The notes under the pieces were generated by a model that saw nothing but the letters and a program-made list of their open reading frames with translations, had not been told where the DNA came from and ran no database searches. Both the position numbers and the translations under genes were made by a program. Positions 32,266 to 35,064 of a stretch of DNA of 35,064 nucleotides are shown here, piece after piece; within the stretch, counting starts at the first letter, position 1, and the number at the start of each line of letters is the position of its first letter. Source of the DNA: Dehalococcoidia bacterium (GTDB lineage: Bacteria; Chloroflexota; Dehalococcoidia; Dehalococcoidales; UBA1222); the NCBI GenBank assembly GCA_003597995.1, contig QZJY01000010.1, positions 1 to 35,064 on the forward strand, read 5' to 3'.

Positions 32266-33387
32266 CTACATTTCCGGCAGGCTGAAGGAAAAGGTGCTGC
32301 CTGCGCCGGGTTTACTTTCCATCCGGATGCTGCCTCCCTGTGCTTCCACAAGCTGTTTGGCGATAGCCAGCCCCAGCCCCGAGCCGCCGGTGGAACGCGA
32401 GCGCGAGCGGTCCACCCGGTAAAACCGCTCGAAGACCAGCGGCAGGTTTTCCGCCGGTATACCCTGCCCGTGGTCGGCTACGGAAACCGCCACGTTTCCC
32501 TTCTCAGAGATAACCTGAACCTCTATGCTGCGGCCATCAGGGCTGTATTTAAGGGCGTTGTCTATCAGGTTGCGCAGCACCTGCGCCGTACGGTCGGCAT
32601 CCGCACTGACCAGCTCGATTTTGGAAGGAATCGAGAGTTTTATCTCTATCCCGCGCGTGGAGGCCACGGCTTTGAACGAATCCACCACTCTGGCACTCAG
32701 CTTGCCGAGGTCCAGCGGCTGCAAATCGAATTTCAGTTGCCCTGCCTCGGCCAGCGACAGCGTGCGCAAATCCTCGACCAGGCGCGCCAGCTCGAGTGTT
32801 TCGCCGTGCAGGGTGTCCAGCGTCTGGCGGTTATTGGGTAGCACGCCGTCAATCATGCCTTCTATGTTGCCCTGCAGCACAGAAATAGGTGTGCGCAGCT
32901 CGTGGGCGATGTCGGCTATCATGTCGCGGCGCAGGTCGCGGTCGTGGCGCAGCGTGGCGGCCATGTTGTTGAAAGATTCCCCCAGGTCCTGCACCTCGCC
33001 GTAACCCTGCGCGTCCACTTTTTGCTCCAGGTCTCCCGCAGCCACTTTATGCGCCGCATCGGCGATCTGGTCCAGAGGCTGTGCTATCTGGCGCGAAAAA
33101 AGCCAGCCCAGCACGAGCGACAACACCACTCCCGCCGCTCCTGCTATCCACAGGAAACTCGCTATGCCGCTGAGGTAATCCTGCCGCGCCTGTAGCAGCG
33201 GCTGCCCCATCATGCCGCCCATCATGCCGCCCATCATGCCCATGCTTGTGATGAACGTATCGAGTTCGCTGTTGCCCGAACGGTAAGCCAGGATGGCCGC
33301 CAGAGCTATCCCCGATACCGAGACCACCAGGAAAGCTGCACTCAGTCTGAAAGAAAGACTGTTCCAGTAGCTTCTAGTCTTCTGCAC
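32266..33387 (-). CDS. Sensor histidine kinase with Met-rich external loop
   Basis: 373 residues from GTG 33387, behind GGAGGAGG and 14 nt inside the regulator gene; the frame extends further upstream but lies within that gene. Two membrane helices (about 15-35 and 75-96) bracket a loop of about 40 residues with M-G-M-M-G-G-M-M-G-G-M-M (49-60). Then HAMP (about 97-150), dimerisation His162 in D-I-A-H-E-L-R-T-P, N-box N-L-I-D-N-A-L-K-Y, G1 D-H-G-Q-G-I-P and G2 G-S-G-L-G-L-A. Methionine clusters bind Cu(I) or Ag(I) in other periplasmic proteins; sensing of such a metal is inferred. It is transcribed with the response regulator. Confidence 0.9.
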   Translation of the reverse strand: MQKTRSYWNSLSFRLSAAFLVVSVSGIALAAILAYRSGNSELDTFITSMGMMGGMMGGMMGQPLLQARQDYLSGIASFLWIAGAAGVVLSLVLGWLFSRQIAQPLDQIADAAHKVAAGDLEQKVDAQGYGEVQDLGESFNNMAATLRHDRDLRRDMIADIAHELRTPISVLQGNIEGMIDGVLPNNRQTLDTLHGETLELARLVEDLRTLSLAEAGQLKFDLQPLDLGKLSARVVDSFKAVASTRGIEIKLSIPSKIELVSADADRTAQVLRNLIDNALKYSPDGRSIEVQVISEKGNVAVSVADHGQGIPAENLPLVFERFYRVDRSRSRSTGGSGLGLAIAKQLVEAQGGSIRMESKPGAGSTFSFSLPEM

Positions 33388-34093
33388 AGCGCGCCTCCTC
33401 CAGTTTGTAGCCGACACCCTGCACGGTAACGATATTGCACCCCTTGCCGCCACTGGTAGTGGAGAGCTTGTGCCGGATATTTTTAATATGGGCGTCGATG
33501 GTGCGGTCGTAGCCCTCATAGGCCATGTCCATGGCGCGCTCGAGGAGCTGCTGGCGGCTGAGCACCCGTCCGGCCGACTGCGCCAGCGCCAGCACGATAC
33601 GGAACTCGGTGGCGGTCAGACTGACCGCCTGTCCGTGGCAGGTCACCTCGAAACGCTCCGGGTCGATAGTCATCTCGCCGAGGCATATAGGCTTGCCGCC
33701 TGATTCAGCCGGTTTCTGAGATCTCCTCAAGACCGCTTTTACCCTGGCGGTAAGCTCGCGCGGGCTGAAAGGTTTAACCACGTAGTCGTCGGCCCCCAGC
33801 TCCAGACCTACCAGCTTATCGGCATCCTCGGCTCTCGCCGTCAGCATGATGACCGGCACCTGCGAACTTCGCCGTATCCCGCGCAGAACGTCCAGGCCGT
33901 CAAGTTCCGGCATCATGATATCGAGGATTATCAGGTCGGGTTTTTCGCGGCGGAAGGCTTCCAGCGCCCGTTTCCCGTCCTGGGCCTCCGTCACCTGGTA
34001 GCCATCCTTTAACAGATAGCTGCGCACGATGGAGAGCACCTTGGGTTCGTCGTCCACCACGAGGATGCGGCCTTTTGTAGCTATCGGGTTCAT
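33374..34093 (-). CDS. OmpR-family response regulator
   Basis: 239 residues from ATG 34093. The receiver has the acidic pair D14-D15 (V-V-D-D-E-P), phosphoacceptor D58 (I-I-L-D-I-M-M-P), T in L-T-A-R-A and K in V-K-P-F-S-P-R-E-L. The C-terminal winged helix has L-T-A-T-E-F-R-I-V and G-Y-D-R-T-I-D-A-H-I-K-N-I-R-H-K-L. The ATG at 34102 overlaps the -10 box (TACAAT, 34106-34101), so 34093, exactly 7 nt downstream, is the likely leaderless start. It is the probable partner of the kinase and the likely regulator of the Met-rich secreted protein gene. Confidence 0.93.
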   Translation of the reverse strand: MNPIATKGRILVVDDEPKVLSIVRSYLLKDGYQVTEAQDGKRALEAFRREKPDLIILDIMMPELDGLDVLRGIRRSSQVPVIMLTARAEDADKLVGLELGADDYVVKPFSPRELTARVKAVLRRSQKPAESGGKPICLGEMTIDPERFEVTCHGQAVSLTATEFRIVLALAQSAGRVLSRQQLLERAMDMAYEGYDRTIDAHIKNIRHKLSTTSGGKGCNIVTVQGVGYKLEEARCAED

Positions 34094-34100
34094 ACTATCC

Positions 34101-34128
34101 ATTGTAACCTGCCTGTAGTCTGTGTCAA
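34101..34128 (-). promoter_or_regulatory. Promoter of the two-component operon, leaderless
   Basis: The minus strand carries TTGACA (34128-34123), 16 bp, TACAAT (34106-34101). Seven nucleotides separate it from ATG 34093. It begins just after the terminator of the upstream gene. Confidence 0.75.
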
Positions 34129-34137
34129 GCCTTTGTG

Positions 34138-34169
34138 AAAAAAAGTGAGGCGGCAGTTACGCCGCCTCA
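34138..34169 (-). terminator. Intrinsic terminator of the Met/Gly-rich secreted protein gene
   Basis: A perfect 9-bp stem TGAGGCGGC/GCCGCCTCA (34146-34154 with 34161-34169), 6-nt loop, followed on the minus strand by a T-run (A-run 34138-34144). It separates this gene from the two-component operon. Confidence 0.88.
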
Positions 34170-34194: not shown

Positions 34195-34812
34195 TTACCA
34201 GCCCATCATTCCGCCGAAGCCCCGGCCTCTGCCGCCCATCATGCCGTAGCCGTAACCGGTTACAGGAGTGTTGGTGCCATTAAGGCCGTTGCCGAAGCAG
34301 CCGTAACCATTGCCGGTTCCAGATGTCGTGACGGGAGCGGCGATTGAGAGAGCAGCCTCGACGCGGGTGCGCAAATTGGCGATGATGGTGTTGGCCTGGT
34401 CCTGAGTTACGTAGCCGTATTTTACCATCAGATTCACCATGTCGGTCTGAGCGGCCACGATGGTATCAACCACCTTGGACAGGTCGACCTTCTGAGCCGT
34501 GGCGATAGCGGCAATGGTTTCGCCATTCTGCAGGCGCTGGACGAACTGGTCGTAGGTGATACCGAGCGTTGTAGCCACGCGCTGCAGGGTGACCTGGTCA
34601 CCGAGAGCCAGCCCGCCGCCGCAGAAGGCGGCGCCGTAGCCCATGTAAAGGCTGTTAGTAGCGGCTGCCAGAGACGGCTGAACCGCAACCGGGGCTGTCT
34701 GGACGGCCGTCTGCGCCTGTGCAGGTATGTCCTTGGCCAGGGCCGGAACGGCTATCAGCGCCGTGGCGGCGATGGCGATGGTGGCAAGTGCGAGAGCGAT
34801 AATCTTTTTCAT
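34195..34812 (-). CDS. Secreted protein with Met/Gly-rich C-terminus
   Basis: 205 residues from ATG 34812 behind GGAGG; the ATG at 34824 is part of that site. The Sec signal peptide (M-K-K-I-I-A-L-A-L ... V-P-A-L-A) is cleaved near residue 27. The middle has a helical pattern L-G-I-T-Y-D-Q-F-V-Q-R-L-Q-N-G-E-T-I-A-A-I-A followed by Y-G-Y-V-T-Q-D-Q-A-N-T-I, similar in style to DUF2680-type extracellular proteins (tentative). The C-terminus is Gly/Tyr-rich and ends G-M-M-G-G-R-G-R-G-F-G-G-M-M-G-W, echoing the loop of the adjacent kinase. A role in metal binding outside the cell is inferred. It has its own promoter with RR-type repeats and its own terminator. Confidence 0.82.
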   Translation of the reverse strand: MKKIIALALATIAIAATALIAVPALAKDIPAQAQTAVQTAPVAVQPSLAAATNSLYMGYGAAFCGGGLALGDQVTLQRVATTLGITYDQFVQRLQNGETIAAIATAQKVDLSKVVDTIVAAQTDMVNLMVKYGYVTQDQANTIIANLRTRVEAALSIAAPVTTSGTGNGYGCFGNGLNGTNTPVTGYGYGMMGGRGRGFGGMMGW

Positions 34813-34860: not shown

Positions 34861-34869
34861 ACTATACCA
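34861..34869 (-). promoter_or_regulatory. Extended -10 of the secreted protein gene
   Basis: The minus strand reads TGG-TATAGT; the predicted start is near 34854. No -35 consensus is present, consistent with a promoter that needs an activator bound at the adjacent heptads. Confidence 0.6.
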
Positions 34870-34875
34870 GCGCGG

Positions 34876-34904
34876 TATGAAGATATTATGAAGACCGTAT
34901 GGAG
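34876..34904 (-). promoter_or_regulatory. Three heptad repeats, probable OmpR-family binding site
   Basis: On plus: TATGAAG (34876-34882), TATGAAG (34887-34893) and TATGGAG (34898-34904), each 11 bp apart. They begin about 9 bp upstream of the -10 and replace the -35 region. Confidence 0.7.
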
Positions 34905-34969
34905 TTTAGATGAATTTGGAGAAATCCAATTCTTCTTAAGGAAGAAGATTCTCTGCACTCTATTTTGTC

Positions 34970-35037
34970 ATTGTCGGGCTTGACCCGACAATCCAGGCCG
35001 ACCCGAAGGGCAGGGACCCACGTGCTTGCACGTGGGT
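34970..35037. repeat. Dispersed palindromic repeat at right edge
   Basis: Two perfect hairpins: ATTGTCGGG/CCCGACAAT (34970-34978 with 34984-34992) and ACCCACGTGC/GCACGTGGGT (35016-35025 with 35028-35037). The first has the TCATT...AATCCAG frame common to interspersed bacterial intergenic repeats. No gene was seen to the right edge. Confidence 0.55.
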
Positions 35038-35064
35038 GAATGTCGCGATGGCGATATAAGGTAG

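Follow-up and report, generated by a model that had tools for sequence, protein, structure and literature searches.

The BaeR box of the BaeSR system (E. coli and Salmonella) is described, in the passages cited here and below for each system, by the consensus TTTTTCTCCATDATTGGC with a conserved CTNCA core, and holds CTCCAT (PMC3799227); the periplasmic protein Spy is given as a main target of BaeSR (PMC3160322). The CreB tag is TTCACN6TTCAC (PMC4689548). In Synechocystis, copMRS encodes a secreted Met-rich protein, a regulator and a kinase and is induced by copper (PMC4335983), and TTCATN4-5TTCAT has been proposed as the CopR site (PMC4182526). PhoP of Mycobacterium tuberculosis binds as a tandem dimer to the direct repeat TCACAGC-N4-TCACAGC (PMC4832192). 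A literature search found DUF2680 only as an unrelated mention, and nothing on the system described below among the papers listed under Dehalococcoides two-component topics.

The DNA analysed (the window) is a 35,064-nt stretch of contig QZJY01000010.1 (positions 1 to 35,064) of a Dehalococcoidia bacterium. A preliminary description had placed three heptads with an 11-bp period at 34876-34904, in front of a gene for a secreted protein, and TATGAAG-ATAT-TATGAAG-ACCG-TATGGAG was confirmed there letter for letter. When up to three mismatches were allowed, this was the sole place found in the window (one exact match plus its own 11-bp slide), with none in 100 shuffles; the exact pattern occurred once in the 1.8-Mb genome and its reversed control did not occur. 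A fourth copy, GATGAAT (ATTCATC on the minus strand), had been overlooked at 34909-34915 in the same 11-bp register, and the array thus comprised four heptads at 34876-34915; no fifth heptad was found at the next register position, 34920-34926. Direct repeats about one helical turn apart are expected of an OmpR/PhoB-family operator, and these four heptads at 11 bp were conserved (see below).

Since the secreted gene lies on the minus strand, the functional reading of the heptads is of the CTTCATA type. From distal to proximal this strand reads ATTCATC-N4-CTCCATA-N4-CTTCATA-N4-CTTCATA-CCGCGCTGG-TATAGT, comprising heptad 4 (ATTCATC, 34909-34915), heptad 3 (CTCCATA, 34898-34904), heptad 2 (CTTCATA, 34887-34893), heptad 1 (CTTCATA, 34876-34882) and a -10 element, TATAGT (34861-34866), extended by a preceding TGG and 9 nt from heptad 1. 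No -35 box was present, the hexamer 17 nt upstream of TATAGT being ATAATA. Further upstream, window positions 34970-35040 hold two palindromic stretches, TTGTCGGGCTTGACCCGACAA and CCCACGTGCTTGCACGTGGG, possibly dispersed repeats.

The promoter precedes a cassette whose elements follow one another on the minus strand in the order secreted gene, hairpin, TTGACA-16-TACAAT promoter, regulator and kinase. The secreted protein (34195-34812, 205 aa) has a Met-Gly tail and is DUF2680-like (PF10925, 29.0 bits against a cut-off of 25); 12 of its 27 homologues matched this family at E ≤ 0.01. Its model (mean pLDDT 67.6) comprised a helical core and a disordered tail and gave no structural match at E ≤ 0.001, hence none to Spy; the protein may or may not have a Spy/CpxP fold. 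A terminator-like hairpin followed by a T run (34146-34169) separates the gene from the regulator; a terminator at this place was not uniform among relatives. The regulator's own promoter, TTGACA-16-TACAAT (34101-34128, 11/12), was found as the same element in a relative of the same genus. At 34091-34106 the -10 of this promoter overlaps the first ATG of the regulator (34102), and translation from a second ATG (34093) would leave the mRNA with next to no leader. The regulator gene (33374-34102) encodes an OmpR-type, BaeR-like response regulator with Response_reg and Trans_reg_C domains above cut-off, our proposed heptad binder. Its start is ~0.77 kb from the heptads, in agreement with the OmpR/PhoB-type regulator that had been described 0.8 kb away. 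The sensor histidine kinase gene (32266-33387) has a probable GTG start that overlaps the end of the regulator gene (a relative also has a GTG start), and its product carries a Met-Gly-containing outer loop.

This arrangement was conserved. Leaving the window aside, the regulator followed the secreted gene on the same strand in 26 of the 27 homologous loci, the 27th stopping at a contig end. A kinase was detected at 80 bits or more in 24 of the 27, the others lying at contig ends or having a weakly matched kinase. The idea that the regulator's own promoter carries such heptads was rejected: the best pair reached at most 10/14 in 26 of the 27 gaps before the regulator, and the corresponding gap of the window held one weak 12/14 pair, overlapping the -35 of the regulator promoter. 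Two loci (L175 and L176) had heptads directly before the regulator gene. The sequence layout suggests two transcription units: the secreted gene, which would be inducible, and the regulator and kinase under a promoter of their own.

To examine conservation of the site, the best CTYCAYA-N4-CTYCAYA within 200 bp upstream of each homologue of the secreted protein (28 matches, the window's among them, from 27 genomes in a set of 156 of this order) was scored, with 500 shuffles for each region. A pair of 13/14 or 14/14 was found before 25 of the 28, and a perfect one before 18; 0.11% of the shuffles reached 13 and none of 14,000 reached 14. Lack of conservation in orthologous promoters had been named in the preliminary description as a result that would overturn its reading; the repeats proved to be conserved. 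TANNNT was located exactly at +9 from the proximal heptad in 22 of 28 promoters and at any other offset from 0 to 25 in no more than two. The core CAT/CAC was kept at offset 0 (heptad 2) in all 28, at +11 (heptad 1) in 27, at -11 (heptad 3, more degenerate in relatives) in 16 and at -22 (heptad 4) in 23; other tested offsets gave at most 5 of 28, save +13 (13), which falls within the proximal heptad. These peaks indicated that the conserved array comprised four heptads, two of them strong.

Searched as a single pattern, the heptad pair and -10 gave 28 exact matches in 26 of the 156 genomes; ~0.3 were expected from base composition and the reversed pattern gave none. In a class-wide sample the pattern was found in 24 of 393 genomes (27 matches, including 13 already counted in the order-wide search; reversed control, 1). 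The first gene behind the 28 exact sites encoded a secreted protein of the window's kind in 22 cases, a short Met-Gly protein in one, a SHOCT-type membrane protein in three and a trypsin-like (HtrA-type) protease in two, as read from translations of open reading frames picked mechanically within 160 nt (distance 31-95 nt); one SHOCT protein and both proteases were confirmed by Pfam. In the two genomes with the protease, the heptads and -10 (L072:1501-1533 and L074:1501-1533) were remote from any such regulator.

Within the window's own genome a wider regulon was not detected, loose pair matches (up to two mismatches) numbering 11 vs 12 in the control. Among the six of nine other places that were examined (all save L061, L062 and L065), C7:2673 was the sole one with a single mismatch, and it had no -10 at +9. 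In other phyla, the stricter pattern CTCCATAATNNCTCCACA-N9-TA was found in 51 stretches of genome contigs, ~7 being expected at equal base frequencies. Some of these matches fell within genes and looked like chance; genes behind others included those for HMA-DsbD-cupredoxin proteins in Herbinix, for SHOCT proteins, for a multicopper oxidase and for a Met-rich protein of Pelosinus (the Pfam scan covered 20 proteins from these and earlier loci). The CTCCATA pair before a protein with HMA, DsbD_2 and cupredoxin-like domains, in Herbinix and a Clostridiales MAG (L125:6159-6187, also L144, L152 and L155), hints at copper.

The closest solved homologue of the regulator was E. coli BaeR (1.9e-54). 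Its best NCBIfam models were CreB (226.1 of 273 bits) and BaeR (223.5 of 380 bits), both below cut-off, and the kinase scored 261.6 of 500 bits against BaeS_SmeS. No other regulator in the genome was more than 45% identical to the window's regulator. A close relative of the regulator was present in 24 of the 26 genomes with an exact site vs 26 of the 130 without (Fisher 2e-12, at an E-value threshold of 2e-65 that was set after looking and with genomes that are not independent); the two site-bearing genomes lacking one (G123 and G124) were incomplete assemblies.

An out-of-sample set of 20 loci of further regulators not used for motif finding was compiled, 17 of which had enough upstream DNA. 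All five regulators with a Lys-Asn (KN) helix had heptads (12 or 13 of 14) and TANNNT at +9. None of the nine regulators with Leu for Lys had CTYCAYA heptads; CTTAAC-N4-TTTAACA-like heptads were found there instead, 9 nt from TANNNT, mostly before small secreted genes that were DUF2680-like by eye, this 9/9 not being independent, as the CTTAAC consensus was derived from the loci on which it was scored. The remaining three loci comprised two with an NH helix and no site (L185 and L188) and one with a GN helix and a 13/14 site near the regulator itself. The scored region stopped 150 nt short of each regulator, so that the L175 and L176 sites were not picked up; nor was that of L038, with CATAAT as its -10. 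Most of the loci L177, L178, L180-L184 and L187 (Leu helix, CTTAAC heptads) also had TTAACA repeats directly before the regulator, unlike the window's clade.

Across the 48 loci with a scored site, C stood at heptad base 4 wherever the regulator had Lys (38/38), and loci with Leu had A instead in their distal heptad (9/9). Among the Lys regulators, those with Ser three residues before the Lys had C as base 3 of their proximal heptad (22/24), and those with Ala, Val or Thr at that position had T (13/14). Stretches ending before the helix (L077, L101 and L103) and a locus without a regulator (L047) were left out of the scoring. In the regulator tree the three kinds, defined by helix, formed three supported groups, so that the covariation amounts to two evolutionary events and not many. 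E. coli BaeR (Ser and Lys, with the CTCCAT box as given in the passage cited above) fitted the rule from outside.

Because words, spacing and gene order recur in many distant relatives and covary with the DNA-reading helix, it is very probable that the neighbouring regulator docks on the heptads. Direct repeats of the 7+4 kind, a spacing fixed at 9 nt and the lack of a -35 make up the layout of OmpR/PhoB-type sites to which tandem dimers bind (PMC4832192). PhoB acts as an activator with this geometry at its promoters. The heptads are therefore read as an activator site of the neighbouring regulator. We thus hold with considerable confidence that the array is the operator of the BaeR-like regulator, which would bind as tandem dimers and activate the secreted gene, with regulator and kinase expressed from their own promoter. 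Stimulation of the kinase would lead to phosphorylation of the regulator, and the phosphorylated regulator would then occupy the array, its four heptads at 11-bp spacing taking up two head-to-tail dimers. Bound regulator would replace the missing -35 contact and recruit RNA polymerase to the -10 9 nt away, switching on the secreted Met-Gly-rich DUF2680-like protein, with the regulator and kinase transcribed from their own ordinary promoter. The analysis supports the proposal of the preliminary description, in which the heptads are the target of the nearby regulator and the secreted gene is turned on by it, the activation step being deduced from promoter geometry; the fourth heptad, the conserved cassette and the likeness to BaeR go beyond that account.

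The array might instead be an OmpR-type operator of another regulator of the genome, the adjoining pair being merely a neighbour: the genome gave nine response-regulator-like matches, of which at least three are OmpR-type and close to full length, and 6 of the 28 exact sites (one at a contig end) have no cassette and no regulator beside them. We consider this unlikely, as the closest alternative regulator shares 45% identity, 26 of 27 loci retain the cassette and the heptads covary with the helix of the neighbouring regulator. That the neighbouring regulator binds the heptads and represses, or works without phosphorylation, is in our judgement quite improbable; the proximal heptad does lie near the -10, but the lack of a -35 hexamer and the fixed 9-nt spacing suit an activator that touches polymerase, and a repressor needs no fixed spacing. 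A chance repeat or drifting low-complexity DNA was rejected as barely credible: loose pair matches in the genome were indeed no more numerous than in the control, but the array was absent from shuffles and kept a single position ahead of homologous genes in genomes that are only distantly related, at a fixed distance from the -10, and the reversed control gave none in 156 genomes.

The outer loop of the kinase (GMMGGMMGGMMG; gene 32266-33387) and the tail of the secreted protein (34195-34812) were observed to have Met-Gly motifs in common. Of the 21 readable loci, 18 had at least four such motifs in the loop; the three remaining ones, which come from genus g20, had one each. Motif counts in loop and secreted partner were correlated (rho 0.65, n=21, permutation 0.0008, uncorrected for kinship; 7 of 28 loci, in which no kinase or H box was found, were left out, and a first pattern with n=18 gave rho 0.62). 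As to the inducer, our guess is either envelope damage or stress or a soft metal, for example Cu(I)/Ag(I); the guess of copper or silver comes from the motifs common to kinase and target, and these motifs, the copper-type genes behind similar sites and the copMRS gene order make Cu(I)/Ag(I) and envelope stress the leading guesses. It is possible, though on balance doubtful, that the cassette represents a widespread, undescribed sensor-and-sponge circuit, in which the Met-Gly-loop kinase would sense, on the outer side of the membrane, a soft metal (Cu(I)/Ag(I)), the regulator would make a secreted protein with a matching Met-Gly tail, and this protein would silence the kinase by capturing its ligand, helices and heptads of sister clades having been re-coded together (Lys/C to Leu/A, and Ser/C to Ala/Val/T). 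If true, this re-coding would be a natural record of how a specificity switch of OmpR-type regulators happens.

By this analysis a secreted DUF2680 family of unknown function gains a candidate regulator, a promoter design and a genetic context, in a class of bacteria in which genetics is difficult. Since helix and heptad change as a pair across three clades of common gene layout, a base-to-residue code for OmpR-type regulators is open to direct testing.

Compared with the described systems (again as given in the passages cited), the locus resembled BaeSR in that the BaeR recognition helix, RTIDSHIKNLRRK, is nearly the same as that of the Ser clade, and that the CTNCA core was present in three of the four heptads of the window (CTTCA, CTTCA and CTCCA). 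It differed from BaeSR in that its regulator and kinase fell below the NCBIfam BaeR and BaeS cut-offs, its target was DUF2680-like without a structural match to Spy at E ≤ 0.001, and its site was a longer array of four heptads. With CreBC it shared a direct repeat of 11-bp period, built on TTCA and located ahead of a target that lies close to the regulator; the window has TTCATN6TTCAT, TTCAC occurs in some relatives, and sites of the window's type have further conserved flanks. Unlike CreB, its regulator scored below the CreB cut-off, and no CreD was seen with its cassette. The gene order of copMRS (secreted Met-rich protein, regulator and kinase) was found in the window, but CopM is a DUF305 protein and the window's protein is DUF2680-like without DUF305, and the repeats of the proposed CopR site are spaced 9-10 bp, against 11 in the window. 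The 7+4 layout was identical to that of the M. tuberculosis PhoP site and the E. coli PhoB pho box, from which the heptad sequences and signals differ.
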